Source: Liolophura sinensis
Taxonomy: Eukaryota > Mollusca > Polyplacophora > Chitonida > Chitonidae
Direction of reading: 5' to 3'
Length of the DNA: 64,000 nt
Assembly (NCBI RefSeq): GCF_032854445.1
Contig: NC_088297.1
Location: 13,687,039-13,751,038, forward strand
A program made the position numbers and the translations under genes. The notes under the pieces are model-generated. The model did not search any database, had not been told where the DNA came from, and saw only the letters and a program-made list of their open reading frames with translations. Position 1 is the first letter of the stretch, and each line of letters starts with the position of its first letter. Below, in pieces: positions 2,987-59,900 of this stretch.

Positions 2987-18098
<15,112 letters not shown>

Positions 18099-27985: not shown

Positions 27986-28045
27986 GGTTAAGAGTTATGT
28001 CCACATTTATTCAATCATAAATTACGCAACGTCTGTGTGAACACG

Positions 28046-32948: not shown

Positions 32949-35900
32949 CTGTTAAACACGAAGAAAATTACAAAGGGTCAAACACTTGGTCACACTACAT
33001 AAGTCCATTAATTTATTCATTTGATTGTTGCTTGATCCCATGCTAATGGATTTTCACACACACGCTGACGGTCAGTTTTCTTGTGAAGGAAAACTGGAGT
33101 ATCCGATATATAAAAAATTGCGATCTTTGGCAGGTTATGGATGAAATTTCTAACATTTGACATTGGTCATCAACGGACGTTAGAGTGCGCTGACGCCCAA
33201 ACGACACCTAATACGATGATTTGTAGTGTTGCCAATGCACCATAAACAGTGGTAACGTGGGGAATCTACCAATTCGCTAGTCAATGCCGATATTCAAACC
33301 AGCAGGTCGTGTGTGCTGTGTGTGGAACTATTCATCTTTAACCTCTGGACGAATGCTGTACTATCCCACAGCGAAACCGCCCTGTATATCTTCATGCAAC
33401 AGACTGGTCTCAATGTTGCAGTACTGGAACCTTATATCAAAAACGTGATTCCCAAGCCAGAACTACATTTGGCTGGCCATGGTCTGCCTGGGTTCGTATT
33501 ATAGTCTATTTCTTTTATAGAGTCGTCTGTAAAATCAGTCATATTCGCTATCAAAATTGTCTTTAGTCAGTGACCCGTAACAACATAAGCTCTGGACATT
33601 CATATGTTTAAAGTTCACATTATTGCAAGGAAAATGAAGTTAGAACACTTTTTCTAAAATGTCCATAAGCCGTGTTTCGACGGCAAGAACCCAATACCTC
33701 GAGTGACGTCATAATTATTCAAAACTGTTCCCTGTTTCTGTTCCTTCCACATTTGAAATTGTTTACATTTTTTAGTATAATATAACCCTAATAAACGCAT
33801 TTAGTTTTATCTGCTGTAGTATATAATCTCACGGCAGTATGGTTTTAAAGTTAGGGAATTTGTTATGAAAACAATGAAGTCTAATTGCTAAGAGTGTAGT
33901 GTGGGCTGTGTTACTGCGTGGAGTTTGTTCGAATCGCATATTTGTGCACCTATTGTAAAAGAAATGACTCTCCACGCAGACTGCCCGGCATGCCACTAAG
34001 TTTTGAACAACTATAACGTCACCCGAGGCAATGAGCTCTTGGTGTCGAAACTAAGCCAATGATGTTTAACACTATGAATTAGAAAAAAAGTGTTCTAATC
34101 TGATATTCTTTGCAAGAATTTGGACTTCCAACACATCCATGTGAACAGCTTGTTTTGTTACGTATCACTGACTAAAGGCAATTTTAGTAGTGAGTATGAC
34201 TGATTTTACAGACAGGTGAATACAGCCGACTCTCTAAAAGAAATAAACTAAGACTTTTAGACTTTATGTCTAGAATTCGAAGGGGTTAAAATGTTAAACC
34301 CAAATTATGGCTGGAACATTATAGTGAACAAATCAGTGTAAAAATATTTTAATTGTTGTTGTTCTTGAATATTTTGCGTAAGTGCTAATGCGTTTCATAA
34401 TTATGGGTCATGGGCTTGTCATTAAGATTTAACGCCCCATACCGTTATATTCATCTAACAGTAACCCTACAAGGCTACAATATAGAGACTAAAACCAGAA
34501 CACTAGCTCGAAAATGGTCGCCCCCCTATCGCCACGGTATAACCAAAGTTACTTTACCATATCGGTGATTTGATTGGTGTACTCAAGACTATTTCCCTTA
34601 TACGACGCGGCCAGTATTATGTTGGGAGAAAACCGGGCAGAACCGGAGGGAAACCCACGGCCATCCGCAGGTTACTGGCAGACCTTCTCTCGTTCGACCG
34701 GGGAGGGAGCCACCATGACTTGAACTCACAACGATCGCATTGGTTTCAAAGTTTTGAAATCGTTTTTAGATCGTTAGGCAAGACCCAAGATTGATCCCCG
34801 GCATTCGCGCTTACAACACGGACGGACGACCAATCCGGCACCGCAGTGCCTTTATTCACTTTTGAACTGTCTCCTTGGTAATCCCTGTGACAAGTTTTCA
34901 AAGAGGCAATTTAAACCAACGTCAGTGAATCGCCACATTCACATCTTTCAAGGTTTCCACAACAAAGAACAACTGCAGCAAGGTCATTAACCGTCTTTTA
35001 AAAGGGGGAAAAAAAATAACAAAATAGCTTGGAGAGTGAATGTCGACTTACCATTTTTCAACTCGTAGCGAACGGGTGACCACTCCGACACGCTCACGCT
35101 GACATCACACTTCTCACAGACGTTGTTAGGATTAACCGCCCCATCAGCGTAACACACACCATCAATGGAGCACATACCCTGGACTAAAAAAATAACACGG
35201 CAAATTTTGTTTATTAAAATACTGTTTAATGAACAAAAATATTGGTGATGTCTGCTCCAAAACCAGTAATTTGGTTGTTGTTTATCAGTACGTGAATTTT
35301 CAAACCTACATTGGAAGTCAATTGCATGTGGAGGGATAGGAAATCGACCTTTGGCAACTTTAATACTGACGAGCCTTCCAATATGTAACCTATTTATTTT
35401 AGATCTGTACAAATGGCGTTCAATGGACGTAGGATGACGCAAATGCTCGTTCATTTATTTCAGTAATTCTTTACGCCTCACTCTAGAATAGTTCACTTAT
35501 TGAGTGGTGGTTAGCATTATGGTGGACAGAGCCCGGTGGGAAAACACGACGATACGTACAGTAGAGGACACCAACCGACTGGATTTGGTCGGTTCCAGAG
35601 TTCCAGAGTCTGTGTGGTGTGCTAACACAGAGAGTCTGTGTGGGGTGCCAACATACAGAGTCTGTGTGGTGTGCTAACACAGAGAGTCTGTGTGGTGTGC
35701 TAACATAGAGAGTCTGTGTGGGGTGCTAACATAGAGAGTCTGTGTGGTGTGCTAACATAGAGAGTCTGTGTGGGGTGCCAACATACAGAGCCTGTGTGAT
35801 GTGCTAACATAGAGAGTCTGTGTGGGGTGCTAACATAGAGAGTCTGTGTGGTGTGCTAACATAGAGAGTCTGTGTGGGGTGCCAACATACAGAGTCTGTG

Positions 35901-38900
35901 TGATGTGCTAACATAGAGAGTCTGTGTGGTGTGCTAACATAGAGAGTCTGTGTGGTGTGCTAACATAAAGAGTCTGTGTGGGGTGCTAACATACAGAGTC
36001 TGTGTGATGTGCTAACATAGAGAGTCTGTGTGGTGTGCTAACATAAAGAGTCTGTGTGGGGTGGTAACACAGAGAGTCTGTGTGGGGTGCCAACATACAG
36101 AGTCTGTGTGATGTGCTAACATAGAGAGTCTGTGTGGTGTGCTAACATAAAGAGTCTGTGTGGGGTGCTAACATACAGAGTCTGTGTGATGTGCTAACAT
36201 AGAGAGTCTGTGTGGTGTGCTAACATAAAGAGTCTGTGTGGGGTGGTAACACAGAGAGTCTGTGTGGGGTGCCAACATACAGAGTCTGTGTGATGTGCTA
36301 ACATAGAGAGCCTGTGTAGGGTGCTAACATAGAGAGTCTGTGTGGGGTGCCAACATACAGAGTCTGTGTGGTGTGCTAACATAGAGAGTCTGTGTGGGGT
36401 GCTAACATAGAGAGTCTGTGTGGTGTGCTAACATAGAGAGTCTCTATGGGGTGCTAACATAGAGAGTTTGTGTGGTGTGCTAACATAGAGAGTCTGTGTG
36501 GTGTGCCAACATACAGAGTCTGTGTGATGTGCTAACATAGAGAGTCTGTGTGATGTGCTAACATAGAGAGTCTGTGTGGTGTGCTAACACAGAGAGTCTG
36601 TGTGGGGTGCCAACATACAGAGTCTGTGTGATGTGCTAACATAGAGAGTCTGTGTGGTGTGCTAACATAGAGAGTCTGTGTAGGGTGCTAACATAGAGAG
36701 TTTGTGTGGTGTGCTAACATAGAGAGTCTGTGTGGGGTGCCAACATACAGAGTCTGTGTGGTGTGCTAACATAGAGAGTCTGTGTAGGGTGCTAACATAG
36801 AGAGTCTGTGTGGTGTGCCAACATACGGAGTCTGTGTGGTGTGCTAACATAGATAGTCTGTGTGATGTGCTAACATAGAGAGTCTGTGTGGTGTGCTAAC
36901 ATAGAGAGTCTGTGTGGGGTGCTAACATAGAGTCTGTGTGGTGTGCTAACATAGAGAGTCTGTGTGGGGTGCCAACATACAGAGTCTGTGTGATGTGCTA
37001 ACATAGAGAGTCTGTGTGGGGTGCTAACATAGAGAGTCTGTGTGGTGTGCTAACATAGAGGGTCTGTGTGGGGTGGTAACATAGAGAGTCTGTGTGGGGT
37101 GCTAACATAGAGAGTCTGTGTGGTGTGCCAACATACGGAGTCTGTGTGGTGTGCTAACATAGAGAGTCTGTGTGATGTGCTAACATAGAGAGTCTGTGTG
37201 GTGTGCTAACATAGAGAGTCTGTGTGGGGTGGTAACATAGAGAGTCTGTGTGGGGTGCTAACATAGAGAGTCTGTGTGATGTGCTAACATAGAGAGTCTG
37301 TGTGGTGTGCTAACATAGAGAGTCTGTGTGGGGTGCTAATATAGAATCTGTGTGGTGTGCTAACATACGGAGTCTGTGTGGGGTGCCAACATACAGAGTC
37401 TGTGTGATGTGCTAACATAGAGAGTCTGTGTGGTGTGCTAACATAGAGAGTCTGTGTGGTGTGCTAACATAGAGAGTCTGTGTGGGGTGCTAACATAGAG
37501 AGTCTGTGTGGTGTGCTAACATAGAGAGTCTGTGTGAGGTGCTAACATACGGAGTCCATGTGGGGTGCTAACATATCATGTCGGCCGCGGAGTTTTTAAC
37601 ACTCAATTACTGGGTTAAACTGCTTCATGCCGAACTGTAAGGGAATCTACAAATGCTCTACCCATCACCAGGTGTGCAAAGCGTCCCAAGGAGCTTTCTA
37701 GAGGGCTGTGGTTTTAGGTTGTTTCGGAAACAGGGTTTACCATTGTCCTTGAAACTCGTCTACTTGGTTTCCACGCGGTATATATGTGTAGGACTTGGCG
37801 CTTATAGTCAAACTCAAATAAGGTTTGTCTTAAATGAGGTCGTTCAGGTTGATAGGTGGACAAAGTAGGAGTGTATTGGGTAAAGCACCATCCTGCAGCA
37901 GGCATGTCAAATATCCTGATTTGAAGCTGATTTCCCGCACACATCACCTCACTTAAATGACTTATATGAAACCCGTACAGTTGTTTCTTGGTGCCAGTCA
38001 AGAGATATAGTGGATGTCAATGTGGAATTATTTGAACAACTGCGATAAAAATGAAAATCATCACAATCAATGCGTTGAAACACAATCGTATGCCAGTCAC
38101 CAATGGACGTTTCGGGTCAATAATGGGGAGGCCAATTCCGGAAGTGAAAGTGAAAGGTACAACTCAGAAGTATATCGTTTACGAATTCTCCAAATAGTCA
38201 TGAAACTTACCGACAGAGAAACCAGTTGTACTGCTTTCACTGGTACATCTCTTACATGAATCATCTGGGTCTTCATCTCCTTCATTGTAGCAAACGCCAT
38301 TGACAAAGCATTTGTTGGCTGAGGACAAACAGAAACGAGCAACATAAGTAAACAAACAAGATTTGCGTTAAACCTGGCATAAGGATTGGCTACTTACACA
38401 CTGAAAAACAATCAGTTTTTCTTTATCAGTAATTATGACATATCATACACAAATGTTAAAAACAAAAATACACGAAATGGACTCAATGAAAGCAATTGCG
38501 CACTGTTCGCTAATAACTGGAAGTATGCCAATTTGACATTAATACATTAAAATTAATATGAACTGAACTAACATGTGATTAAAGTTTAATCTCTGCAGGG
38601 TTTGATTAAAAGCGGTCACAACAAATTACGATTTTACTTAGCATACTGAATTATTAGATGAAACCGTTCAAGACTATAAGTGTCCACATTTCATCAGCTG
38701 TAAAGTATATGTGATACAAAAACTAGGAGGATTCACTTGGTTCCGGACAGACAATGCCAGTGCTCACATTGGACAGACCTATATTGTTGTGCTACAATGT
38801 AGGATGGTGTCGAGGAGGGGGCAGTCTAAGATAAAATTATGTCTTCAATTTATCATGAAATACAGTCCACCAGAAACAAACACCGACATTTCAAAATATC

Positions 38901-41900
38901 TGCGAAAAGTGGGAGAACAATACAAGGCTCACCGTCCCATAACATATACGTGACAAGGCAGTGTTTTAAGAAAATTGCAGTTGACATTGCTGAATTTCTA
39001 TCTAATTCTACTTAAGCTATGGTCCTAGGCGGCGTGTAATTTGCCAGTATTGAAACATTTACATGAACAGTTACAATTTAATCCTAACTGAGGTAAGTTA
39101 GGCCGTATTTCACCGGTTACGTGTGACCATTGCCAGCTATCACACTGTCGTCGATGCTCTGGTTTTACCGTCTCCACTGTACGTCTTTAACTCTATAGAG
39201 GTTCACTGTTCACTCACTTATGACGCTAAACTCAGTTTTGCCATGCACACTGTTGCAAACTCTGCATGAGAAATCGGGATCAGTCTGCCCATCATTGTAA
39301 CACGTTCCGCACGCACACCAACACACACATATATATGATGTGCTCGTGCATTATTTAAATTTCCATTTAAAACTTACCTAGTAGAGTAAGCTCTGTAGTC
39401 GAAACATTCTGTTGACACATTTTACACTCAATGCCGGGTATTCCTTCTCCTTCAACGTAGCAAACACCGTTTACATTGCAGACGTTCTCTAAAAAAATTG
39501 TCCAAGCTTATTAGTCATAAGTACAAGTATATCTCATCTTTGCCAGTTATAGCAAAAGTTACAGTCTACGGCCAAACAGGTGCGAATTATCAATCAAGCG
39601 AAAAGTACGATGCCACTTCTGGGAAAAGGAGATGCCAGCGTTATGTGTACTGTTATTTTAGTGGAAGTGCTCTTTTTTATTTGAATAGTGATCTACGCTG
39701 TACTCAAGAATACTTCAGCTGTACGACGGGGCCAGCATAGTGGTGGGATTGTACCATAGTCGGATGTACTGTCATGCAAATGGAAATAGAAGATACCATT
39801 GTTAAATATACTGTCATGCCAGTGGAAATGGAAGATATCATAGTTATATGTACTGTCATGCCAGTGGAAATGGAAGATATCATAGTTAGATGTACTGTCG
39901 TGCTAGTGGTAATAGAGGATATCATAATTAGATGTCCTGTCGTGCTAGTGGTAATAGAGGATATCATTGTTAGATGTACTGTCGTGCTGGTGGAAATGGA
40001 AGATATCATAGTTAGATGTTCTGTCGTGCTAGTGGTAATAGAGGATATCATAATTAGATGTACTGTCGTGCTAGTGGTAATAGAGGATATCATTGTTATA
40101 TGTACTGTCTTGCTAGTGGAAATGGAAGATATCATTGTTAAATGTACTGTCGTGCTAGTGGAAATAAAAGATATTACATTTAGATGTACGGTCGAGCTAG
40201 TAGAAATGGACGATAACATTGTTCGATGTCCTGTCGTGCTAGTGGAGATGGAGGATATCGTTGTTAAATGTACTGTCGTGCAAGTTAGAAAAGAGCATGT
40301 CATTGTTAGAAGCTCTGTCATGCTAATGGAAATAAAGCATCTCATCGTTAGATGTACTGTCATGCTAATGGCAACAGAGAATACCATTGTTAGATATACT
40401 GCCATTCTAATGGCAACAGAGAATACCATCGTTAGATATACTGTCATGCTAATGACAACACAGAATACCATCGTTAGATATACTGTCATGCTAATGACAA
40501 CAGAGAATACCATCGTTAGATATACTGTCATGCTAATGGAAATAAAGCATCTCATCGTTAGATGTATTGTCATGCTAATGGCAACAGAGAATACCATTGT
40601 TAGATATACTGCCATGCTAATGGCAACAGAGAATACCATCGTTAGATATACTGTCATGCTAATGACAACACAGAATACCATCGTTAGATATACTGTCATG
40701 CTAATGACAACAGAGAATACCATCGTTAGATATACTGTCATGCTAATGGCAACAGAGAATACCATCGTTAGATATACTGTCATGCTTATGGCAACAGAGA
40801 ATACCATTGTTAGATATACTGTCATGCTTATGGCAACAGAGAATACCATCGTTAGATATACTGTCATGCTTATGGCAACAGAGAATACCATTGTTAGATA
40901 TACTGTCATGCTAATGGCAACAGAGAATACCATTGTTAGATATACTGTCATGCTAATGGCAACAGAGAATACCATTGTTAGATATACTGTCATGCTTATG
41001 GCAGCAAAGGATATCATATATGTAGCCTACTGTCATGCTGTATGCTGTGTTAGCACGCGAACTCGGTCGCGGAGGTCACAGCACTAAATTTATGGATTAA
41101 ACAACTTAATACCAAGGTGTAATGGAATCCACAAATGCTTTACCCATTATCAGGTGTGCACAGGCGGCCCCAGGAACTCTCTGTGGTGTGCACTACAGCC
41201 CGTTACCTCCTACCTCATTCACACAGACAGGACACACAGAACTACACCAGACCATGTCATTTCTTTATCTAAGTAACATCTAACTTGTTGATACAGACTT
41301 GTGTATGCACTCAAATTACCAAACTGAATACACAACTCTGGGTGGCAAATATAGACAGATCGGTCAGGACATCTAGCGATCTGCGTCATGCATGTAAATG
41401 TAGGTCTATCTACCCAGGGTTATAGGGGGTATAAGCATTCATGTTATAAATAGTAACAATCATTTAGACACCTATATTTGTATCTGACTCAAAAACTGTT
41501 CACACGCTATGGGTATAAAATTTGAATTCGATACTTGTGGAGCGTCCGTTGCATAATCAAAATTTAAAAGTTATTCTGTCTTACATGTTTCAAGCTTTAC
41601 TAACTATTTCTGAAATAGTACTTACATATGCCTTTAAAAACTGAGGTTTTAGGTTGTTTGGGAAACAGGTTTTGCGATTATCGCCTTATAACTCGTCTTA
41701 CTGGTTTCTGAGGGGTATACGATAGTTGGCATTGTCGCCAAGGTCAAACTCATTGGTAGATATCGGCTGAGAATACCAGATGATTTGGAAAACCGAAAAC
41801 ATAGCCCACCCCTTCACTGCCAAACATGTTTGGCAGTGGCATTTTAATGACTTTATCTTAATACCTTCAACCAAGACTGTACACTTGACAGTAGCAATGA

Positions 41901-44900
41901 TAAAATGGTATGAAATAATGGGAATAATAATCATGATTTTCGCTAAATGTAAAACTTCGTTTTTCAGACTTATTGTGAGAACCCAAGCCCACAGATGATA
42001 TCCGTCATCAGGAAATCTCATCATGTTGCGCATCAGTGTTATAGCCATAAAAAAGACAAGTTCTGACTTTTAACAGTGAACTAAATTGACCAAGAACTCA
42101 CCTTTGGGAGTAAACTCCGTAGCGCTGCTCGAACTTTCACACTGTGTGCAGGTCACATTTGGCTGCTCCTCCCCATCATTATAACACATGTTGTCGATAA
42201 AACATTTGCCAGCTGAGTAGTAAAACGTCGTCATAAAAGTTAGTGAGCACAACAATGTCCAAAGTTAATACAATCATTAATCTTGAGCCATCACTGTTAA
42301 CAAAACGTGCACAAAAAAACAACAGGTTATAAGTGGAAGAGTAAAAATTCGGATTCATTTGTAATCCACTAAACTGTGTGTATTACCGCATATTTCACTG
42401 TAAAATATAATTGAATGGAAACCCTTGCTTAATGTAAATTTTAAATCTAGACAAAACAACGTTCTAAAAGAAACGTGTATGTGATCGTCAAAGAATCTGG
42501 GGTGTCGTCTTATAAAAGATGTTGTTATAAGGAAAAGGTTCCATTATGGAAATTTTTACCACATGCTCACCTTGAGGACTAAACTCAGACGAGCTTATTG
42601 CACTGATGCATGATAGGCAGGGGAAATTGGGATGCGTATCGCCGTCGCCATAGCAAGTGCCATTAATAAGGCATGTGTTGGCTGAAGTACAAAAAACAGC
42701 AGAAATGAAAAAAAAAACACATATATTTTCTTTAATTAAAAACCCTCTAAAAATCGTTTGGTCATAAAAAAACATCGCAACTGGGATACATTTTCGCCCA
42801 TACCTAGACACCGAATGAAAATATGGGTTATGCAAATACATTTCCAAAAAGAAAATTAATCAAGGTTAAGCTAGATTTACCTCACCCACTTCATTCAACA
42901 ATTGCACTGAAAGGCTCTAGCCTTTAACTCTTTTGCAGAGGCGTGGATTTTAAAACACCACAAAATGACTATATAGCCAGATTTCTTTCTGCAGTCTAAA
43001 GTTAGCGGTTTGTTCAACTGGTTTACATATGTACTGATACAGAAATTAATGAACACTTACGTTGTAAAGTAAGTTCTGAGGTTGACAAATCCAAATCACA
43101 CACCTTACAGCCAATACCCTCTTCTGATTGTCCTTCACCATAACACACGCCATTTACATTGCAGACGTTCGCTACAAAAAAAAACTCAGACCTAGTCACC
43201 AGTATTTGGCACCTTCAGCCCCAAAACCAAGTTATATCACACCGGGCAACGATCAAACACATTAAAAATATTGATTTTACCATCTTTCGGCCGAGAATAA
43301 GAGACGAAAAAAAAAAAAAACGAAAATGGGACGCTACACTAATACAATATAAAATGAGTGCCAAGTTTCATCTTTTCACAATTTCCAGCAAAAATATCGG
43401 ACAAGCTGTGCAAGAGTAATATAAAACTCGCCTTCTTCAATTCTTGTGTTGTGGTTATAAAAAAACATGTGACACCAGATAGCGTTGTTTCAATGTGTAA
43501 CGTAGTTTGTTACAAAGTTGTCGGGGTAGAGCTACCCTGGTCCAGTTGTACATTATATCCTCCGATGTGGATTTATAAAAACAGAGGCCCAAGAATAGCA
43601 GCTGTTAAATATTTTTGTTTCGAGAACTGCTACTTTTACATGTTTAAACCCTTGTCAAAAACAGATGGCCTGTTCCTTTATGTAAGAACACAAAAGGTTC
43701 TTCAATGAAGAAAATTCCATTTACCTCTTGGGGAAAACGCAGCTGTGTTGGTGGTACTGTTACATGCCTGGCACGAGTTATTCTCATCTATATGTCCCTC
43801 GTCATAACATGTGTCTTCGATGAAGCATTTATTGTCTGAGGATGCAAGGAAGAGAAAGACGGTAACGACAAATGTCATCGTCAACAAAACGTTATACATT
43901 TTGCTTTCCATAAACACTTAACAGTGCTAGCAAACTAGTCAACATTTTTCTTGTCTATCGACATTACTTTCAACTTTGAAGCACATTGTTTTGAGATAAG
44001 AGTTACAAAACAAGGTTCTTTACATCTGCCAAACGATACCGGTACTAAAATACAATTTATCTCTTTTCTGCCGATAAAATTTTGCACAGGCACTTTAATG
44101 ACTTCATGTTAATACCTTTAACCAAGACCGCACACCGATAGTTTCACTGTTGTTTTTGTAGCGATGATAAAACGGTATTTGATCATGTGAATAATAATCA
44201 TGATTACCGATAACTGTTAAACTTCTCTTTTTCAGACTTATTGTAAGAACCTAAGCCCACAGATGAAATCCGTCAACAGAAAATTGATTTCTCATACATG
44301 TACACATACCAACCTGGCGTTATCTTATATTACATATAGGCACATACAATTCTTATACTCTTATCATGTTGCGCAAGACACTGGTTTAACAGCATTCTAT
44401 TCTCTCGTACATCAATGTTATAGCCCTGAGGAAGACAAGTTCTGGTTAAACAGTGTGTTAAATGGATCAAGAATTCACCTTTGAGAGTAAACTCCGAAGG
44501 GTTGCTCGAACTATCACACTGTTTGCAAGTCACACTTGGGTCCTCGTCCTCATCACTGTAGCATATGTTGTCGATGAAACATTTGCCAGCTGAGTAGTAA
44601 AACGTCGTCATAAAAGTTAACAAGCACAACAATGACCCAATCTTGAAAATGAACAACGCGACTAGTATAATTTTGTACATTATGTACACTTTATCTACCA
44701 AGCTTTCGAACTATAACTATAGTCATCATCAGGGTGAGTAAGTGGCAACTTCATGGAACATCTATTATGGTACAGTATATATACATAGTACAGGCTAGCA
44801 AAACAGGTCTATCAGGAAAGAGTTATATATACTGCACCATAATGAATGTTCCTTGCAGTTGCCACTTACTCACCCTGATGATGACTATAGTTATAGTTCG

Positions 44901-47900
44901 AAAGCTTGGTAGATAAAGTGTACATAATGTACAAAATTATACTAGTCGCCTTATTCATTTGCAAGATTATCAAAGCGCTCCACCATGGAATATACAATGA
45001 CCCAAGTTAATGAAATCATCAATTATCATCAATTGCTGTCAACAAAAGTGCAAAATAAACAATACAAAACTAAGTGTGAAAGAGTTAAAATTCGGATTCA
45101 TTTGTAATCCACTAAACTGTGTGTATTACCGCATATTTCACAGCGAAATATAATTGAATGGAAAACCTTGCTTAATGTAAATTTTAAATCTAGACAAAAT
45201 AACATTCTAAAACAAACGTGGATGTGATCGTCAAAGAATCTGGGGTGTCGTCTTATAAAAGATGTTGTTATAAGGAAAAGGTTCCATTATGGAAATTTTT
45301 ACCAAATGCTCACCTTGAAGACTAAACTCAGACGAGCTTACTGCACTGATGCATGATAGGCAGGGGAAATCGGGATGCGTATCGCCGTCGCCATAGCAAG
45401 TGCCATTAATAAGGCATGTGTTGGCTGAAGTACAAAAAACAGCAGAAATGAAAAAGGACACATATACTTCCTTTAATTAAAAACCCTCTATAAATCGTTT
45501 AGTCATAAAAAACATTGCAACTGGGATACATTTTCGCCCATACTTAGACATCGAAAGAAAATATGGGTTATGCAAATACATTTCCAAAAAGAAAATTAAT
45601 CAAGGTTAAGCTAGATTTACCTCACCCACTTCATTCAACAATTACACTGAAAGGCTCTAGCCTTTAACTCTTTTTCAGAGGCGTGGATTTTAAAACACCA
45701 CAAAATGACTATATAGCCAGATTTCTTTTTGCATTCTAAAGTTAGCGGTTTGTTCAACTGGTTTTACATATGTACTGATACAGAAATTAATGAACACTTA
45801 CGTTGTAAAGTAAGTTCTGAGGTTGACGAATCCAAATCACACACCTTACAGCCAATGCCCTCTTCTGATTGTCCTTCACCATAGCACACGCCATTTACAT
45901 TGCAGACGTTCGCTAGAAAAAATACTCAGACCTAGTCACCAGTATTTGGCACCTTCAGCCCCAAAACCAAGTTATATCACATGGGGCTACGATCAAACAC
46001 ATTAAAAATTTGGTATTTACAATCTCTCGGCCGAGAATACCAGACGAATCAGAAAAAAACGAAAATGGGACGCTACACTAACACAATTTAAGATGAGTGC
46101 CAAGTTTCATCTTTTCACAATTTCCAGTAAAAGTTTGGCCCAGACTGTGCAAGAGTAATATAAAACACGCCTTCTTCAATTCTTGTGTTGTGTTTATAAA
46201 AATCTATGACACCAGATAGCGTTGTTTCAATGTGTAACGTAGTTTGTTACAAAGTTGTCGGGGTAGAGCTACCCTGGTCCAGTTGTACATTATATCCTCC
46301 GATGTGGATTTATAAAAACAGAGGCCCAAGAATAGCAGCTGTTAAATATCTTCGTTTCGAATACTGCTACTTAATACAGCAGCTAGTTTAACCAACTTTT
46401 AAACATTAAAACCCTTGTCAAAAACAGATGGCCTTGTTCTTTGTGTAAGAAAACAAGAGGTTTTTCAATGTAGAAAATTCCATTTACCTCTTGGGGAAAA
46501 CGCAGCTGTGTTGGTGGTACTGTTACATGCCTGGCACGAGTCATTCTCATCTACATGTCCCCTCGTCATAACATGTGTCTTCGATGAAGCATTTATTGTC
46601 TGAGGATGCAAGGAAGAGAAAGACGGTAAGGACAAATGTCATCGTCAACAAAACGTTATACATTTTGCTTTCCATAAACACTTAACAGTGCTAGCAAACT
46701 AGTCAACATTTTTCTTGTCTACCGACTTTACTTTCAACTTTAAAGCACATTGTTTTGAGATAAGAGTTACAAAACAAGGTTCTTTACATCTGCCAAACGA
46801 TACCGGTATTAAAATACAATTTATCTCTTTCCTGCCGATGATATTTGGCACAGGCACTTTAATAACTTCATGTTAATACCTTTAACCAAGACCGCACACC
46901 GATAGTTTCACTGTTGTTTTTGTAGCGATGATAAAACGGTATTTGATCATGTGAATAATAATCATGATTACCGATAACTGTAAAACTTCTATTTTTCAGA
47001 CTTATTGTAAGAACCTAAGCCCACAGATGAAATCCGTCAACAGAAAATTGATTTCTCATACATGTACACATACCAACCTGGTGTTATCTAATATTACATA
47101 TAGGCACATACAATTCTTATACTCTTATCATGTTGCGCAAGACACTGGTTTAACAACATTCTATTCTCTCGTACATCAATGTTATAGCCCTGAGGAAGAC
47201 AAGTTCTGGTTAAACAGTGTGTTAAATGGATCAAGAATTCACCTTTGAGAGTAAACTCCGAAGGGTTGCTCGAACTATCACACTGTTTGCAAGTCACACT
47301 TGGGTCCTCGTCCTCATCATTGTAGCACATGTTGTCGATGAAACATTTTCCAGCTGAGTAGTAAAACGTCGTCATAAACGTTAACAAGCACAACAATGAC
47401 CCAATCTTGCAAATGAACAACGCGACTAGTATAATTTTGTACATTATGTACACTTTATCTACCAAGCTTTCGAACTATAACTATAGTCATCATCAGGGTG
47501 AGTAAGTGGCAACTTCATGGAACATCTATTATGGTACAGTATATATACATAGTACAGGCTAGCAAGACAGGTCTGTCAGGAAAGAGTTATATATACTGCA
47601 CCATAATGAATGTTCCTTGCAGTTGCCACTTACTCACCCTGATGATGACTATAGTTATAGTTCGAAAGCTTGGTAGATAAAGTGTACATAATGTACAAAA
47701 TTATACTAGTCGCCTTATTCATTTGCAAGATTATCAAAGCGCTCCACCATGGAATATACAATGACCCAAGTTAATGAAATCATCAATTATCATCAATTGC
47801 TGTCAACAAAAGTGCAAAATAAACAATACAAAACTAAGTGTGAAAGAGTTAAAATTCGGATTCATTTGTAATCCACTAAACTGTGTGTATTACCGCATAT

Positions 47901-50900
47901 TTCACAGCGAAATATAATTGAATGGAAAACCTTGCTTAATGTAAATTTTAAATCTAGACAAAATAACATTCTAAAACAAACGTGGATGTGATCGTCAAAG
48001 AATCTGGGGTGTCGTCTTATAAAAGATGTTGTTATATGGAAAAGGTTCCATTATGGGAATTTTTACCAAATGCTCACCTTGAAGACTAAACTCAGACGAG
48101 CTTACTGCACTGATGCATGATAGGCAGGGGAAATCGGGATGCGTATCGCCGTCGCCATAGCAAGTGCCATTAATAAGGCATGTGTTGGCTGAAGTACAAA
48201 AAACAGCAGAAATGTAAAAGGACACATATACTTCCTTTAATTAAAAACCCTCTATAAATCGTTTAGTCATAAAAAACATTGCAACTGGGATACATTTTCG
48301 CCCATACTTAGACATCGACTGAAAATATGGGTTATGCAAATACATTTCCAAAAAGAAAATTTATCAAGGTTAAGCTAGATTTACCTCACCCACTTCATTC
48401 AACAATTACACTGAAAGGCTCTAGCCTTTAACTCTTTTTCAGAGGCGTGGATTTTAAAACACCACAAAATGACTATATAGCCAGATTTCTTTTTGCAGTC
48501 TAAAGTTAGCGGTTTGTTCAACTGGTTTACATATGTACTGATACAGAAATTAATGAACACTTACGTTGTAAAGTAAGTTCTGAGGTTGACGAATCCAGAT
48601 CACACACCTTACAGCCAATGCCCTCTTCTGATTGTCCTTCACCATAGCACACGCCATTTACATTGCAGACGTTCGCTAGAAAAAATACTCAGACCTAGTC
48701 ACCAGTATTTGGCACCTTCAGCCACAAAACCAAGTTATATCACATGGGGCTACGATCAAACACATTAAAAATTCGGTATTTACAATCTCTCGGCCGAGAA
48801 TACCAGACGAATCAGAAAAAAACGAAAATGGGACGTTACACTAACACAATTTAAGATGAGTGCCAAGTTTCATCTTTTCACAATTTCCAGTAAAAGTTTC
48901 GCCCAGACTGTGCAAGAGTAATATAAAACACGCCTTCTTCAATTCTTGTGTTGTGTTTATAAAAAAACATGACACCAGATAGCGTTGTTTCAATGTGTAA
49001 CGTAGTTTGTTACAAAGTTGTCTGGGTAGAACTACCCTGGTCCAGTTGTACATTATATCCTCCGATGTGGATTTATAAAAACAGAGGCCCAACAATAGCA
49101 GCTGTTAAATATCTTCATCTTATTTAAACATTAAAACCCTTGTGAAAAACAGATGGCCTTGTTCTTTGTGTAAGAAAACAAGAGGTTTTTCAATGAAGAA
49201 AATTCCATTTACCTCTTGGGGAAAACGCAGCTGTGTTGGTGGTACTGTTACATGCCTGGCACGAGTCATTCTCATCTACATGTCCCTCGTCATAACATGT
49301 GTCTTCGATGAAGCATTTATTGTCTGAGGATGCAAGGAAGAGAAAGACGGTAACGACAAATGTCATCGTCAACAAAACGTTATACATTTCGCTTTCCATA
49401 AACACTTAACAGTGCTAGCAAACTAGTCAACATTTTTCTTGTCTATCGACTTTATTTTCAACTTTGAAGCACATTGTTTTGAGATAAGAGTTACAAAACA
49501 AGGTTCTTTACATCTGCCAAACGATACCGGTATTAAAATACAATTTATCTCTTTCCTGCCGATGATATTTGGCACAGGCACTTTAATAACTTCATGTTAA
49601 TACCTTTAACCAAGACCGCATACCGGTAGTTTCACTGTTGTTTTTGTAGCGATGATAAAACGGTATTTGATCATGAGAATAATAATCATGATTACCGATA
49701 ACTGTAAAACTTCTATTTTTCAGACTTATTGTAAGAACCTAAGCCCACAGATGAAATCCGTCAACAGAAAATTGATTTCTCATACATGTACACATACCAA
49801 CCTGGCGTTATCTAATATTACATATAGGCACATACAATTCTTATACTCTTATCATGTTGCGCAAGACACTGGTTTAACAGCATTCTATTCTCTCGTACAT
49901 CAATGTTATAGCCCTGAGGAAGACAAGTTCTGGTTAAATAGTGTGTTAAATTGATCAAGAATTCACCTTTGAGAGTAAACTCCGAAGGGTTGCTCGAACT
50001 ATCACACTGTTTGCAAGTCACACTTGGGTCCTGGTCCTCATCATTGTAGCACATGTTGTCGATGAAGCATTTGCCAGCTGAGTAGTAAAACGTCGTCATA
50101 AAAGTTAACAAGCACAACAATGACCCAATCTTGCAAATGAACAACGCGACTAGTATAATTTTGTACATTATGTACACTTTATCTACCAAGCTTTCGAACT
50201 ATAACTATAGTCATCATCAGGGTGAGTAAGTGGCAACTTCATGGAACATCTATTATGGTACAGTATATATACATAGTACAGGCTAGCAAGACAGGTCTGT
50301 CAGGAAAGAGTTATATATACTGCACCATAATGAATGTTCCTTGCAGTTGCCACTTACTCACCCTGATGATGACTATAGTTATAGTTCGAAAGCTTGGTAG
50401 ATAAAGTGTACATAATGTACAAAATTATACTAGTTGCCTTATTCATTTGCAAGATTATCAAAGCGCTCCACCATGGAATATACAATGACCCAAGTTAATG
50501 AAATCATCAATTATCATCAATTGCTGTCAACAAAAGTGCAAAATAAACAATACAAAACTAAGTGTGAAAGAGTTAAAATTCGGATTCATTTGTAATCCAC
50601 TAAACTGTGTGTATTACCGCATATTTCACAGCGAAATATAATTGAATGGAAAACCTTGCTTAATGTAAATTTTAAATCTAGACAAAATAACATTCTAAAA
50701 CAAACGTGGATGTGATCGTCAAAGAATCTGGGGTGTCGTCTTATAAAAGATGTTGTTATATGGAAAAGGTTCCATTATGGGAATTTTTACCAAATGCTCA
50801 CCTTGAAGACTAAACTCAGACGAGCTTACTGCACTGATGCATGATAGGCAGGGGAAATCGGGATGCGTATCGCCGTCGCCATAGCAAGTGCCATTAATAA

Positions 50901-53900
50901 GGCATGTGTTGGCTGAAGTACAAAAAACAGCAGAAATGTAAAAGGACACATATACTTCCTTTAATTAAAAACCCTCTATAAATCGTTTAGTCATAAAAAA
51001 CATTGCAACTGGGATACATTTTCGCCCATACTTAGACATCGACTGAAAATATGGGTTATGCAAATACATTTCCAAAAAGAAAATTTATCAAGGTTAAGCT
51101 AGATTTACCTCACCCACTTCATTCAACAATTACACTGAAAGGCTCTAGCCTTTAACTCTTTTTCAGAGGCGTGGATTTTAAAACACCACAAAATGACTAT
51201 ATAGCCAGATTTCTTTTTGCAGTCTAAAGTTAGCGGTTTGTTCAACTGGTTTACATATGTACTGATACAGAAATTAATGAACACTTACGTTGTAAAGTAA
51301 GTTCTGAGGTTGACGAATCCAGATCACACACCTTACAGCCAATGCCCTCTTCTGATTGTCCTTCACCATAGCACACGCCATTTACATTGCAGACGTTCGC
51401 TAGAAAAAATACTCAGACCTAGTCACCAGTATTTGGCACCTTCAGCCACAAAACCAAGTTATATCACATGGGGCTACGATCAAACACATTAAAAATTCGG
51501 TATTTACAATCTCTCGGCCGAGAATACCAGACGAATCAGAAAAAAACGAAAATGGGACGTTACACTAACACAATTTAAGATGAGTGCCAAGTTTCATCTT
51601 TTCACAATTTCCAGTAAAAGTTTCGCCCAGACTGTGCAAGAGTAATATAAAACACGCCTTCTTCAATTCTTGTGTTGTGTTTATAAAAAAACATGACACC
51701 AGATAGCGTTGTTTCAATGTGTAACGTAGTTTGTTACAAAGTTGTCTGGGTAGAACTACCCTGGTCCAGTTGTACATTATATCCTCCGATGTGGATTTAT
51801 AAAAACAGAGGCCCAACAATAGCAGCTGTTAAATATCTTCATCTTATTTAAACATTAAAACCCTTGTGAAAAACAGATGGCCTTGTTCTTTGTGTAAGAA
51901 AACAAGAGGTTTTTCAATGAAGAAAATTCCATTTACCTCTTGGGGAAAACGCAGCTGTGTTGGTGGTACTGTTACATGCCTGGCACGAGTCATTCTCATC
52001 TACATGTCCCTCGTCATAACATGTGTCTTCGATGAAGCATTTATTGTCTGAGGATGCAAGGAAGAGAAAGACGGTAACGACAAATGTCATCGTCAACAAA
52101 ACGTTATACATTTCGCTTTCCATAAACACTTAACAGTGCTAGCAAACTAGTCAACATTTTTCTTGTCTATCGACTTTATTTTCAACTTTGAAGCACATTG
52201 TTTTGAGATAAGAGTTACAAAACAAGGTTCTTTACATCTGCCAAACGATACCGGTATTAAAATACAATTTATCTCTTTCCTGCCGATGATATTTGGCACA
52301 GGCACTTTAATAACTTCATGTTAATACCTTTAACCAAGACCGCATACCGGTAGTTTCACTGTTGTTTTTGTAGCGATGATAAAACGGTATTTGATCATGA
52401 GAATAATAATCATGATTACCGATAACTGTAAAACTTCTATTTTTCAGACTTATTGTAAGAACCTAAGCCCACAGATGAAATCCGTCAACAGAAAATTGAT
52501 TTCTCATACATGTACACATACCAACCTGGCGTTATCTAATATTACATATAGGCACATACAATTCTTATACTCTTATCATGTTGCGCAAGACACTGGTTTA
52601 ACAGCATTCTATTCTCTCGTACATCAATGTTATAGCCCTGAGGAAGACAAGTTCTGGTTAAATAGTGTGTTAAATTGATCAAGAATTCACCTTTGAGAGT
52701 AAACTCCGAAGGGTTGCTCGAACTATCACACTGTTTGCAAGTCACACTTGGGTCCTGGTCCTCATCATTGTAGCACATGTTGTCGATGAAGCATTTGCCA
52801 GCTGAGTAGTAAAACGTCGTCATAAAAGTTAACAAGCACAACAATGACCCAATCTTGCAAATGAACAACGCGACTAGTATAATTTTGTACATTATGTACA
52901 CTTTATCTACCAAGCTTTCGAACTATAACTATAGTCATCATCAGGGTGAGTAAGTGGCAACTTCATGGAACATCTATTATGGTACAGTATATATACATAG
53001 TACAGGCTAGCAAGACAGGTCTGTCAGGAAAGAGTTTTATATTCTGCACCATAATGAATGTTCCTTACAGTTGCCACTTACTCACCCTGATGATGACTAT
53101 AGTTATAGTTCGAAAGCTTGGTAGATAAAGTGTACATAATGTACAAAATTATACTAGTCGCCTTATTCATTTGCAAGATTATCAAAGCGCTCCACCATGG
53201 AATATACAATGACCCAAGTTAATGAAATCATCAATTATCATCAATTGCTGTCAACAAAAGTGCAAAATAAACAATACAAAACTAAGTGTGAAAGAGTTAA
53301 AATTCGGATTCATTTGTAGTCCAGTAAACTGTGTGTATTACCGCATATTTTACAGCGAAATATAATTGAATGGAAAACCTTGCTTAATGTAAATTTTAAA
53401 TCTAGACAAAATAACATTCTAAAACAAACGTGGATGTGATCGTCAAAGAATCTGGGGTGTGGTATTATAAAAGATGTTGTTATATGGAAAAGGTTCCATT
53501 ATGGAAATTTTTACCAAATGCTCACCTTGAAGACTAAACTCAGACGAGCTTACTGCACTGATGCATGATAGGCAGGGGAAATCGGGATGCGTATCGCCGT
53601 CGCCATAGCAAGTGTCATTAATAAAGCATGTGTTGGCTGAAGTACAAAAAACAGCAGAAATGAAAAAAGGACACATATACTTCCTTTAATTAAAAACCCT
53701 CTATAAATCGTTTAGTCATAAAAAACATTGCAACTGGGATACATTTTCGCCCATAAATAGACATCGACTGAAAATATGGGTTATGCAAATACATTTCCAA
53801 AAAGAAAATTAATCAAGGTTAAGCTAGATTTACCTCACCCACTTCATTCAACAATAACACTGAAAGGCTCTAGCCTTTAACTCTTTTTCAGAGGCGTGGA

Positions 53901-56900
53901 TTTTAAAACACCACAAAATGACTATATAGCCAGATTTCTTTTTGCAGTCTAAAATTAGCGGTTTGCTCAACTGGTTTACATATATACTGATACAGAAATT
54001 AATGAACACTTACGTTGTAAAGTAAGTTCTGAGGTTGACGAATCCAAATCACACACCTTACAGCCAATGCCGTCTTCCGATTGTCCTTCACCATAGCACA
54101 CACCATTTACATTGCAGACGTTCGCTAGAAAAAAATACTCAGACCTAGTCACCAGTATTTGGCACCTTCAGCCCCAAAACCAAGTTAAATCACATGGGGC
54201 TACGATCAAACACATTAAAAATTTGGTATTTACAATCTCTCGGCCGAGAATACCAGACAAATCAGAAAAAAACGAAAATGGGACGTTACACTAACACAAT
54301 TTAAGATGAGTGCCAAGTTTCATCTTTTCACAATTTCCAGTAAAAGTTTCGCCCAGACTGTGCAAGAGTAATATAAAACACGCCTTCTTCAATTCTTGTG
54401 TTGTGTTTATAAAAAAACATGTGACACCAGATAGCGTTGTTTCAATGTGTAACGTAGTTTGTTACAAAGTTGTCGGGGTAGAGCTACCCTGGTCCAGTTG
54501 TACATTATATCCTCCGATGTGGATTTATAAAAACAGAGGCCCAACAATAGCAGCTATTAAATATCTTCGTTTCGAATACTGCTACTTAATACAGCAGCTA
54601 GTTTAACCAACTTTTAAACATTAAAACCCTTGTCAAAAACAGATGGCCTTGTTCTTTGTGTAAGAAAACAAGAGGTTTTTCAATGTAGAAAATTGCATTT
54701 ACCTCTTGGGGAAAACGCAGCTGTGTTGGTGGTACTGTTACATGCCTGGCACGAGTTATTCTCATCTACATGTCCCTCGTCATAACATGTGTCTTCGATG
54801 AAGCATTTATTGTCTGAGGATGCAAGGAAGAGAAAGACGGTAACGACAAATGTCATTGTCAACAAAACGTTATACATTTTGCTTTCCATAAACACTTAAC
54901 AGTGCTAGCAAACTAGTCAACATTTTTCTTGTCTATCGACTTTACTTTCAACTTTGAAGCACATTGTTTTGAGATAAGAGTTACAAAACAAGGTTCTTTA
55001 CATCTGCCAAACGATACCGGTATTAAAATACAATTTATCTCTTTTCTGCCGATAGTATTTTGCACAGGCACTTTAATGACTTCATGTTAATACCTTTAAC
55101 CAAGACCGCACACCGATAGTTTCAATGTTGTTTTTGTAGCGATGATAAAACGGTATTTGATCATGTGAATAATAATCATGATTACCGATAACTGTTAAAC
55201 TTCTCTTTTTCAGACTTATTGTAAGAACCTAAGCCCACAGATGAAATCCGTCAACAGAAAATTGATTTCTCATACATGTACACATACCAACCCGGCGTTA
55301 TCTAATATTACATATAGGCACATACAATTCTTATACTCTTATCATGTTGCGCAAGACACTGGTTTAACAGCATTCTATTCTCTCGTACATCAATGTTATA
55401 TCCCTGAGGAAGACAAGTTCTGGTTAAACAGTGTGTTAAATGAATCAAGAATTCACCTTTGAGAGTAAACTCCGAAGGGTTGCTCGAACTATCACACTGT
55501 TTGCAAGTCACACTTGGGTCCTGGTCTTCATCACTGTAGCACATGTTGTCGATGAAACATTTGCCAGCTGAGTAGTAAAACGTCGTCATAAAAGTTAACA
55601 AGCACAACAATGACCCAATCTTGCAAATGAACAACTCGACTAGTATAATTTTGTACATTATGTACACTTTATCTACCAAGCTTTCGAACTATAACTATAG
55701 TCATCATCAGGGTGAGTAAGTGGCAACTTCATGGAACATCTCTTATGGTACAGTATATATACATAGTACAGGCTAGCAAGGCAGGTCTGTCAGGAAAGAG
55801 TTTTATATACTGCACCATAATGAATGTTCCTTGCAGTTGCCACTTATTCACCCTGATGATGACTATAGTTATAGTTCGAAAGCTTGGTAGATAAAGTGTA
55901 CATAATGTACAAAATTATATTAGTTGCCTTATTCATTTGCAAGATTATCAAACCGCTCCACAATGGAATATACAATGACCCAAGTTAATGAAATCATCAA
56001 TTATCATCAATTGCTGTCAACAAAAGTGCAAAAAAAACAATACAAAACTAAGCGTGGCAGAGTTAAAGTTTGGATTCATTTGTAATCCACTAAACTGTGT
56101 GTATTACCGCATATTTCACTGTGAAATATAATTGAATTGAAAACTCTGCTTAATGTAAATTTTAAATCTAGACAAAACAACATTCTAAAACAAACGTGGA
56201 TGTCATCGTCAAAGAATCTGGGGTGTCGTCTTATAAAAGATGTTGTTATAAGTAAAAGGTTCCATTATAGAAATTTTTACCAAATGCTCACCTTGAAGAC
56301 TAAACTCAGACGAGCTTACTGCACTGATGCATGATAGGCAGGGGAAATCGGGATGTGTATCGCCGTCGCCATAGCAAGTGTCATTAATAAAGCATGTGTT
56401 GGCTGAAGTACAAAAAACAGCAGAAATGAAAAAAGGACACATATATAATTTCTTTAATTAAAAACCCTCTATAAATCGTTTAGTCATAAAAAACATTGCA
56501 ACTGGGATACATTTTCGCCCATACTTAGACATCGACTGAAAATATGGGTTATGCAAATACATTTCCAAAAAGAAAATTAATCAAGGTTAAGCTAGATTTA
56601 CCTCACCCACTTCATTCAACAATTGCACTAAAAGGCTCTAGCCTTTAATTCCTTTTTCAGAGGCGTGGATTTTAAAACACCACAAAATGACTATAAAACC
56701 AGATTTCTTTTTGCAGCCTAATGTTAACGATTTGTTTAACCGGTTCACATATATACTAATACAGAAATTAATGAACACTTACGTTGTAAAGTAAGTTCCG
56801 AGGTTGACGAATCCAGATCACACACCTTACAGCCAATGCCGCCTTCCGATTGTCCTTCACCATAGCACACGCCATTTACATTGCAGACGTTTGCTACAAA

Positions 56901-59900
56901 AACATAGTCACCAATATTTGGCACCTTCAGCCACGAAACCAAGTTATATCACACCGGGCAACGATCAAACACTTTAAGGATATTGATTTTACCATCTTTC
57001 GGTCGAGAATACGAGACGAATCAGAAAAAAAACGAAAATGGGACGCTACACTAACACAATTTATAATGAGTGCCAATTTTCATCTTTAAAGATTTCCAGG
57101 AAAAGTATCGGACAAACTGTGCAAGAGTAATATAAAACAAGCCTTCTTCAATTCTTGCGTTGTGTTTATAAAAAAAACATGACACCAGATAGCGTTGTTT
57201 CAATGTGTAACGTAGTTTGTTAAACAGTTGGCGGGGTAGAGCTACCCTGGTCCAGTTGTACATTATATCCTCCGATATGGATTTATAAAAACAGAGGCCC
57301 AACAATAGCAGCTGTTAAATATTTTTGTTTCGAGAACTGCTACTTTTACATATTTAAACCCTTGTCAAAAACAGATGGCCTGTTCCTTTATGTAAGAACA
57401 CAAAAGGTTCTTCAATGAAGAAAATTGCATTTACCTCTTGGGGAAAACGCAGCTGTGTTGGTGGTACTGTTACATGCCTGGCACGAGTTATTCTCATCTA
57501 TATGTCCCTCGTCATAACATGTGTCTTCGATGAAGCATTTATTGTCTGAGGATGCAAGGAAGAGAAAGACGATAACGACAAATGTCATCGTCAACAAAAC
57601 GTTATACATTTCGCTTTCCATAAACACTTAACAGTGCTAGCAAACTAGTCAACATTTTTCTTGTCTATCGATCTTACTTTCAACTTTGAAGCACATTGTT
57701 TTGAGATAAGAGTTACAAAACAAGGTTCTTTACATCTGCCAAACGATACCGGTACTAAAATACAATTTATCTCTTTTCTGCCGATAGTATTTTGCACAGG
57801 CACTTTAATGACTTCATGTTAATACCTTTAACCAAGACCGCACACCGATAGTTTCAATGTTGTTTTTGTAGCGATGATAAAACGGTATTTGATCATGTGA
57901 ATAATAATCATGATTACCGATAACTGTTAAACTTCTCTTTTTCAGACTTATTGTGAGAACCTAAGCCCACAGATGAAATCCGTCAACAGAAAATTGATTT
58001 CTCATACATGTACACATACCAACCTGGTGTTATCTAATATTACATATAGGCACATACACTTCTTATACTCTTATCATGTTGCGCAAGACACTGGTTTAAC
58101 AGCATTCTATTCTCTCGTACATCAATGTTATATCCCTGAGGAAGACAAGTTCTGGTTAAACAGTGTGTTAAATGGATCAAGAATTCACCTTTGAGAGTAA
58201 ACTCCGAAGGGTTGCTCGAACTATCACACTGTTTGCAAGTCACACTTGGGTCCTGGTCCTCATCATTGTAGCACATGTTGTCGATGAAACATTTGCCAGC
58301 TGAGTAGTAAAACGTCGTCATAAAAGTTAACAAGCACAACAATGACCCAATCTTGCAAATGAACAACGCGACTAGTATAATTTTGTACATTATGTACACT
58401 TTATCTACCAAGCTTTCGAACTATAACTATAGTCATCATCAGGGTGAGTAAGTGGCAACTTCATGGAACATCTCTTATGGTACAGTATATATACATAGTA
58501 CAGGCTAGCAAGACAGGTCTGTCAGGAAAGAGTTATATATACTGCACCATAATGAATGTTCCTTGCAGTTGCCACTTACTCACCCTGATGATGACTATAG
58601 TTATAGTTCGAAAGCTTGCTAGATAAAGTGTACATAATGTACAAAATTATATTAGTTGCCTTATTCATTTGCAAGATTATCAAAGCGCTCCACCATGGAA
58701 TATACAATGACCCAAGTTAATGAAATCATCAATTATCATCAATTGCTGTCAACAAAAGTGCAAAATAAAAAATACAAAACTAAGTGTGAAAGAGTTAAAA
58801 TTCGGATTTATTTGTAATCCACTAAACTGTGTGTATTACCGCATATTTCACAGCGAAATATAATTGAATGGAAAACCTTGCTTAATGTAAATTTTAAATC
58901 TAGACAAAATAACATTCTAAAACAAACGTGGATGTGATCGTCAAAGAATCTGGGGTGTCGTCTTATAAAAGATGTTGTTATAAGGAAAAGGTTCCATTAT
59001 AGAAATTTTTACCAAATGCTCACCTTGAAGACTAAACTCAGACGAGCTTACTGCACTGATGCATGATAGGCAGGGGAAATCGGGATGCGTATCGCCGTCG
59101 CCATAACAAGTGTCATTAATAAAGCATGTGTTGGCTGAAGTACAAAAAACAGCAGAAATGAAAAAAGGACACATATATAATTTCTTTAATTAAAAACCCT
59201 CTATAAATTGTTTAGTCATAAAAAACATTGCAACTGGGATACATTTTCGCCCATACCTAGACATCGACTGAAAATATGGGTTATGCAAATACAGTTCCAA
59301 AAAGAAAATTAATCAAGGTTAAGCTAGATTTACCTCACCCACTTCATTTAACAATTACACTGAAAGGCTCTAGCCTTTAACTCTTTTTCAGAGGCGTGGA
59401 TTTTAAAACACCACAAAATGACTATATAGCCAGATTTCTTTTTGCAGTCTAAAGTTAGCGGTTTGTTCAACTGGTTTACATATGTACTGATACAGAAATT
59501 AATGAACACTTACGTTGTAAAGTAAGTTCTGAGGTTGACGAATCCAAATCACACACCTTACAGCCAATGCCGTCTTCTGATTGTCCTTCACCATAACACA
59601 CGCCATTTACATTGCAGACGTTCGCTAGAAAAAATACTCAGACCTAGTCACCAGTATTTGGCACCTTCAGCCCCAAGGCCAAGTTGTGTCAGATTTTACT
59701 TTTTTTTTTTTTTATTCCAGTGGTAAACATATCTGTGCCACATGAGTTTCCATTTGAATGGAAAAGTTAAAAACCTTTCTGCGCAGGTTTTTATGTAATT
59801 ATACACTGATGAAATCGAGAGAAAAAAGGGTTAATTAACTTTTGGAAAAAGGCAAAAATATCGTATAAGGGTCACTGAAATACAAATTGCAGAAGCTGGT

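Follow-up and report, generated by a model that had tools for sequence, protein, structure and literature searches.

Tandem amplification of a four-exon cassette within a chiton gene, and paralogues that amplify units of one and five exons

Genes that multiply parts of their own coding sequence in tandem have been described before, and three of them bear on the locus reported here. According to excerpts of the papers cited, kringle IV type 2 (KIV-2) of human LPA consists of 5.6-kb units with two exons each, present in 1 to ~40 copies per allele (PMC11462820); the 156-residue repeat of human MUC16 is encoded by five exons and occurs in at least 60 copies (PMC3431878); and abalone VERL carries ~22 negatively charged repeats of ~150 residues, of which the first are distinct and the inner ones homogenised (PMC3567151). 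Here we analyse a window of 64,000 nucleotides from the chiton Liolophura sinensis (C3, also scaffold_11, positions 13687039-13751038), in which one gene, gene 1, contains a tandem array of a four-exon cassette, the exon types being called D, C, B and A. The assembly was published under the name Liolophura japonica (PMC11068029), and a correction gives the species as L. sinensis (PMC12441733). All 609,464,459 bases of the genome (632 contigs, with C3 accounting for 27,489,247 bases) were searched; coordinates are window-based unless prefixed by C3 or C1.

Gene 1 resembles LPA in that a unit of several exons is arranged head to tail within one gene, together with its introns and in highly homologous copies. 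It differs from LPA in lacking the kringle fold, in that copy-number variation is established there and predicted here, and in being one of three paralogues rather than a single gene. MUC16 is comparable in repeat size, with 156 residues from five exons against 148 residues from four in the gene 1 cassette; however, it has a SEA domain and a potential transmembrane region, and its repeat spans five exons, whereas each exon of the chiton array is one module. With VERL, the chiton protein would share a molluscan, extracellular setting, distinct first repeats followed by homogenised inner ones, a repeat size of about 150 residues and negative charge, but VERL has a ZP-N motif, which was not found in the chiton modules or end domains. 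In common with the intragenic multi-exon coding repeats of LPA KIV-2 and MUC16, the array has a tandem unit of whole exons that is neutral to the reading frame, and by this analogy its layout belongs to a known kind. The preliminary description of the locus knew of no described system with exactly this layout, which, as a statement of kind, fails on MUC16 and LPA. Among the titles listed on mollusc SRCR genes with tandem exons, chiton SRCR proteins, concerted evolution of tandem exon cassettes and chiton egg-hull repeats, there was no report of the module family and none of nearby paralogues with arrays of differing unit size.

Exon structure and limits of gene 1

Exons were located by a script that seeks the module pattern and then AG/GT borders in frame. 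The array lies on the minus strand (59624-42102) and comprises 27 exons, six times in the order D-C-B-A and once as D-C-B, which corresponds to 6.75 cassettes, in which D, C and B occur seven times each and A six times. All but one (26/27) are exactly 111 nt long, open, flanked by AG and GT, and begin and end in phase 1. The D-to-D spacing is 2731, 2769, 2725, 2724, 2763 and 2741 bp in transcription order. Exon order, length, phase, a period of 2.72-2.77 kb (here 2,724-2,769 bp) and the number of copies had been given correctly in the preliminary description; its interval for the array is 41600-59690, and the exons extend from 42102 to 59624.

Cassette 1 (57435-59624) contains D 59624-59514, C 59134-59024, B 58299-58189 and A 57545-57435; cassette 2 (54703-56893), D 56893-56783, C 56402-56292, B 55567-55457 and A 54813-54703; cassette 3 (51937-54124), D 54124-54014, C 53636-53526, B 52801-52691 and A 52047-51937; and cassette 4 (49213-51399), D 51399-51289, C 50912-50802, B 50077-49967 and A 49323-49213. 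They are followed by cassette 5 (46488-48675), with D 48675-48565, C 48188-48078, B 47353-47243 and A 46599-46488 (one G too many), cassette 6 (43725-45912), with D 45912-45802, C 45424-45314, B 44589-44479 and A 43835-43725, and the partial cassette 7 (42102-43171), with D 43171-43061, C 42681-42571 and a more diverged B at 42212-42102. Between units, introns are 95.1-99.2% and intact exons 96.4-99.1% identical. With units that are 95-99% identical and a ratio of replacement to silent substitution rates (dN/dS) of 0.34 within the array, chance need not be considered as an explanation. With phase 1 at both borders of the array exons, whole cassettes would be gained or lost in frame when introns undergo unequal crossing-over or gene conversion with one another; the frame-neutral gain and loss of cassettes proposed earlier is thus borne out by the symmetric exons, and the protein could become longer or shorter in whole steps, as had been suggested for individuals or through splicing.

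On the same strand, upstream of the array, lie an N-terminal domain exon of 83 codons (61796-61548, 249 nt, phase 0-0), which is conserved in genes 1, 2 and 3, a first module exon (60699-60585, 115 nt, phase 0-1), the acceptor of which (ctacag before GCA) is inferred from the phase of the preceding exon, and a second module exon (60123-60013, 111 nt), found in the module and splice scan. Downstream of the array, there are an older D-like module exon (39488-39378, 111 nt), a decayed C-like module (~39341-39219), which has lost its acceptor and first half and has an intact counterpart in gene 2, the penultimate module exon (38318-38211, 108 nt, phase 1-1, donor GTAAGT), the last module exon (35183-35052, 132 nt, phase 1-1) and the terminal exon (32948-32707), which encodes a C-terminal cysteine domain and ends in VVCP and the stop codon TAG. 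Outside the array, gene 1 therefore has five intact modules (starting at 60699, 60123, 39488, 38318 and 35183) and one decayed one; together with the 26 of the array, this gives 31 intact four-cysteine modules, in agreement with the 'at least 31' claimed before. Added up, the known exons of gene 1 would give a protein stretch of ~1,350 residues, to which the array contributes 999.

The two ends delimit a single gene. The terminal exon is joined to the last module in phase 1 and is kept in the four paralogues read there, with the stop directly after VVCP in all four; an alignment of the terminal domain from six genes has 7 cysteines in common. The 249-nt N-terminal exon is also found at C3:13827849-13828097 (93% identity, gene 2) and C3:14143349-14143582 (45%, gene 3). 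Genome-wide, at E up to 1, the terminal domain matched in 15 places and the N-terminal exon in 14, none of them inside an array, and in every array gene both exons are present as a single intact copy. Each array is therefore internal to one gene, and gene 1 is one gene on the minus strand that extends at least from 61796 to 32707, its two end exons bracketing the array; the preliminary description had likewise placed the array inside one gene.

The introns of gene 1 contain repeats of their own. A palindromic element resembling a miniature inverted-repeat transposable element, with 145-nt arms that are 94% complementary and 40 nt between them, is located in a C-B intron at 44639-44968; by eye, the next cassette has it starting anew at the corresponding position, and the partial cassette 7, with its short C-B intron, lacks it there. 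Minisatellites of 26 bp x 76 (35605-37575) and 42 bp x 30 (39752-41017) likewise sit in introns of gene 1, the latter with a counterpart in gene 2, as judged by eye; a third one, 44 bp x 29, lies at 28041-29301.

Paralogues, homogenisation and selection

The segment with gene 1 and its flanks has been duplicated next door, giving gene 2, which extends from 141059 to 88371 in window-based numbering (C3 13.775-13.828 Mb). All 57 exons of its array are open, 111 nt long and in phase 1-1. They are arranged as D-C-c-A, followed by ten D-C-B-c-A units and a final D-C-B, c being a second C-type exon; nine of the ten full units measure 3,200-3,272 bp and the tenth 4,225 bp. Gene 3 (C3 14.071-14.144 Mb), ~0.3 Mb from gene 1, has at least 30 module matches at ~1.2-kb spacing between 14085518 and 14120607, a lower bound, as 150 of 178 candidates were scored. 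Eight of these 30 were read as sequence; every one proved to be an exon of 111 nt, with a single exon in each unit. The size of the amplified unit hence differs by paralogue: gene 1 multiplies four exons, gene 2 five and gene 3 one. The arrays of genes 2 and 3 are outside the window and were thus not visible to the preliminary description. Among the seven complete units of gene 3, neighbours are 92.9-96.5% identical, while two of the five pairs of units two apart reach 98.4% and 99.7%, suggesting that recent steps copied pairs. Further family members are found on C3, in the 93.0-93.5 Mb region of C1 and, as single copies, in other places.

Two observations concern these relatives. Downstream of gene 3, on the minus strand at C3:14068327-14068545, there is a degenerate second terminal exon with four stops, likely a pseudogene remnant. 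The C1 members (C1:93017228-93468831) form a second cluster of the same family, with terminal domains, N-terminal domains and modules.

In a tree of 99 exons, built from modules of 111 nt, each of the types A to D forms one clade across genes 1 and 2 (support 0.69-0.93), the copies of gene 1 form one clade in all four types, and in each of the four, the copies of gene 1 are separated from those of gene 2. The clades by type indicate that the four exon types predate the duplication of genes 1 and 2, and that the copies were homogenised or multiplied afterwards. The divergence of a unit from its neighbour ranges from 0.88 to 4.40% across the 5 pairs of gene 1 and from 0.22 to 7.39% across the 10 pairs of gene 2. 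The closest pair in gene 1 (one of five) has 24 substitutions in 2,724 bp, or 0.88%; in gene 2, three of the ten pairs have 7-8 in ~3,200 bp, or 0.22-0.25%. As these smallest differences are below the published heterozygosity of the assembly, 1.24% (PMC11068029), some of the duplication or conversion events probably postdate the divergence of an average pair of alleles, although such low values could also result if both haplotypes were joined in tandem; with reads that do not span the arrays, the exact copy numbers are uncertain. From the low divergence between units in this single assembly, copy-number polymorphism is to be expected.

Selection within the arrays was estimated by comparing each copy with the consensus of its type, whereby shared changes are counted repeatedly and p values are rough; the diverged last B exons (42212 and 100594) and the frameshifted A exon were excluded. 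The resulting dN/dS is 0.34 for gene 1 (25 exons, Fisher p 0.0017) and 0.33 for gene 2 (56 exons, p 0.0002), indicating that the array copies are under purifying and not diversifying selection.

Domain searches and neighbouring sequences

The array module has four cysteines per 37 residues, and the 26 intact array exons of gene 1 together have a predicted isoelectric point of ~4.05, with 158 aspartate or glutamate against 37 lysine or arginine residues. Pfam searches gave no VWC match for 16 modules at E up to 1 or for longer stretches, no ZP match for the known module and end-domain exons (61796 and downstream) and no match for the terminal domain; a PDB sequence search of the modules and the terminal domain returned chance matches only. 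In the searches made, module and terminal domain thus appear to fall outside any Pfam or PDB family. We took sub-threshold Pfam matches of modules and N-terminal exon to DUF5766, DUF7836, DUF6085, ADH_N, PSI and zf-CCCH_11 as chance, and a Kazal-like reading of the terminal domain, based on cysteine spacing, was dropped, as the spacing differs and Pfam found nothing. For the last module, AlphaFold (13 sequences) predicted four strands, with a best predicted local distance difference test score (pLDDT) of 88.6; four of the five models exceed 87 and the fifth has 46.6. Searching with this model, Foldseek listed VWC domains (CCN3, collagen IIA) in four of eight matches, including the top rank, all at E of at least 1.9 and a probability of at most 0.13. 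The likeness to VWC lies in the four-strand model of the last module and the difference in the absence of a Pfam match and the weak Foldseek E values, so that we treat a VWC-like fold as a lead rather than as membership. Four cysteines in 37 residues make up about half of a VWC domain. The terminal domain was modelled at pLDDT 46 and this model was not used; the domain is short and, by eye, without a hydrophobic tail.

SRCR (PF00530) matched in exons of the neighbouring gene 0 and, by similarity, in none of the stretches of genes 1-3 examined (5' ends not included). Three SRCR domains, with two exons for each, occupy 15317-9904 on the minus strand. On one side of them is the array gene and on the other a short series of modules (7231, which has lost its second cysteine, 6425 and 3772) with a terminal exon at 3229-2990. 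The third SRCR domain is followed by a phase-1 donor, but also by an in-frame stop and AATAAA, and the SRCR stretch and these modules may constitute two genes or a single one in which SRCR domains and modules are fused. SRCR forms a large family in this chiton genome, with at least 158 matches reported when 150 of 500 first-look candidates were scored; PMC8614816, as far as its excerpt goes, concerns a different SRCR protein. Two adjacent open reading frames on the minus strand at 4181-5194 resemble, by eye, a Tc1/mariner-type transposase.

Elsewhere in the assembly, mitochondrial COI is free of stops under code 5 and is preceded by ND2 and followed by COII (gene names assigned by eye), in keeping with a mollusc. 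It occurs once on contig C632 and about every 15.5 kb on contig C99 (7 matches), where the mitochondrial genome appears as a tandem multimer, probably an assembly artefact.

Interpretation of the arrays

We think it rather probable that the gene 1 family encodes a secreted, acidic, disulfide-rich repeat protein of structural or adhesive function that expands by unequal exchange. Its plan would comprise an N-terminal domain, two distinct modules, the homogenised repeats, a few older modules and the C-terminal cysteine domain. All exons would most likely be spliced constitutively into an extended protein, which is probably secreted, and the repeated acidic module would act by number, as matrix, mucus, adhesive or egg-envelope material. 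After the duplication, expansion or homogenisation would have proceeded in each paralogue separately, on a cassette of its own. That the copies are uniform and under purifying selection favours a structural or adhesive unit over a diversified receptor. Of the extracellular recognition or structural role proposed in the preliminary description, the extracellular character is consistent with the type of cysteine module, while homogenised copies and dN/dS values of 0.34 and 0.33 count against a diversifying recognition receptor.

Several observations weigh against this interpretation. The 27th array exon, A of cassette 5, is one nucleotide longer than the others (112 nt): a G run contains one G more, and the frame is broken. 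Between genes 1 and 2, dN/dS of the array exons is 0.59 (p 0.07), and exons are 85.6% identical compared to 81.1% for introns (one unit pair, p 0.03); constraint is therefore modest. For the terminal exon alone, dN/dS is 2.1, from 2 silent and 14 replacement changes. Silent divergence (dS) between the two genes is 0.27 in array exons and 0.08 in six flanking exons, for which we can offer conversion of the flanks or a deeper history of the array as the sole explanations. In the tree, with midpoint rooting, the copies of gene 2 are united in a single clade for just one of the four types. With regard to secretion, the search for a signal peptide yielded a conserved ATG exon (66495-66430) that is a weak candidate only, and exons further upstream of 61796 were sought and not found; the first-exon search gave no pair common to genes 1 and 2 in phase 1, and in phase 0 this one weak candidate. 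Overall, these comparisons point to a repeat region that stays open and uniform in a protein that changes fast between paralogues.

Such fast change (dN/dS 0.59) would also suit an egg-envelope gamete-recognition protein that, like abalone VERL, binds a sperm protein many times over. The distinct first and homogenised inner modules match VERL, as does the strongly acidic nature of the arrays, given the negative charge of its repeats (PMC3567151, excerpt). VERL repeats are ZP-N motifs, however, while Pfam found neither ZP nor any other known domain in the chiton modules and end domains, and we regard this reading as unlikely. A diversified immune recognition protein, in which the cassettes serve as alternative binding modules through splicing or between individuals, seems distinctly unlikely to us: cysteine-rich extracellular modules, symmetric exons that permit skipping and the SRCR gene adjoining gene 1 would fit, but homogenised copies (95-99% unit identity in gene 1) under purifying selection are the opposite of a diversified repertoire, and, in the stretches examined, the SRCR exons were found only in gene 0.

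The remaining alternatives question the array itself. Its length could be wrong through collapse of near-identical units, or through haplotypes placed in tandem. The HiFi reads of the assembly (mean 8,347 bp, 14x; PMC11068029) do not span arrays of 17.5 kb (gene 1) and 36.6 kb (gene 2), neighbouring units differ by just 0.2-0.9%, about the order of allelic differences, in one of five gene 1 and five of ten gene 2 pairs, and the sole frameshift in the array falls in a G run. Yet the other four gene 1 pairs differ by 1.2-4.4%, which HiFi reads can resolve, the three paralogues carry cassettes of different unit size, and a 300-base intron probe matched in 18 places, all of them on C3. Copy number may thus be off, but the array can hardly be an artefact, and we judge this explanation very unlikely. 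It is more improbable still that the array exons are relics which are skipped, with only the unique modules being translated; gene 1 does tolerate one frameshifted and one decayed exon, but among the 84 array exons that genes 1 and 2 have between them, 83 are open and bordered by AG and GT, and dN/dS within the arrays is ~0.33.

One can ask whether the arrays of the gene 1 family, in at least three nearby paralogues, continue to turn over within the species, with the number of cassettes and the length of the protein varying between individuals and being under selection, possibly in egg-envelope or surface material that acts by repeat number. We put this forward tentatively, as a possibility with the balance against it. 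Were it true, the family, with units of one, four and five exons, would offer a natural experiment on how a coding-repeat unit is chosen and homogenised. The three genes lie near each other and their end domains are recognisably shared, which would allow the choice of unit, its homogenisation and changes in length to be compared side by side. Should copy number vary in populations, LPA KIV-2 would have a counterpart among molluscs in the chiton arrays.

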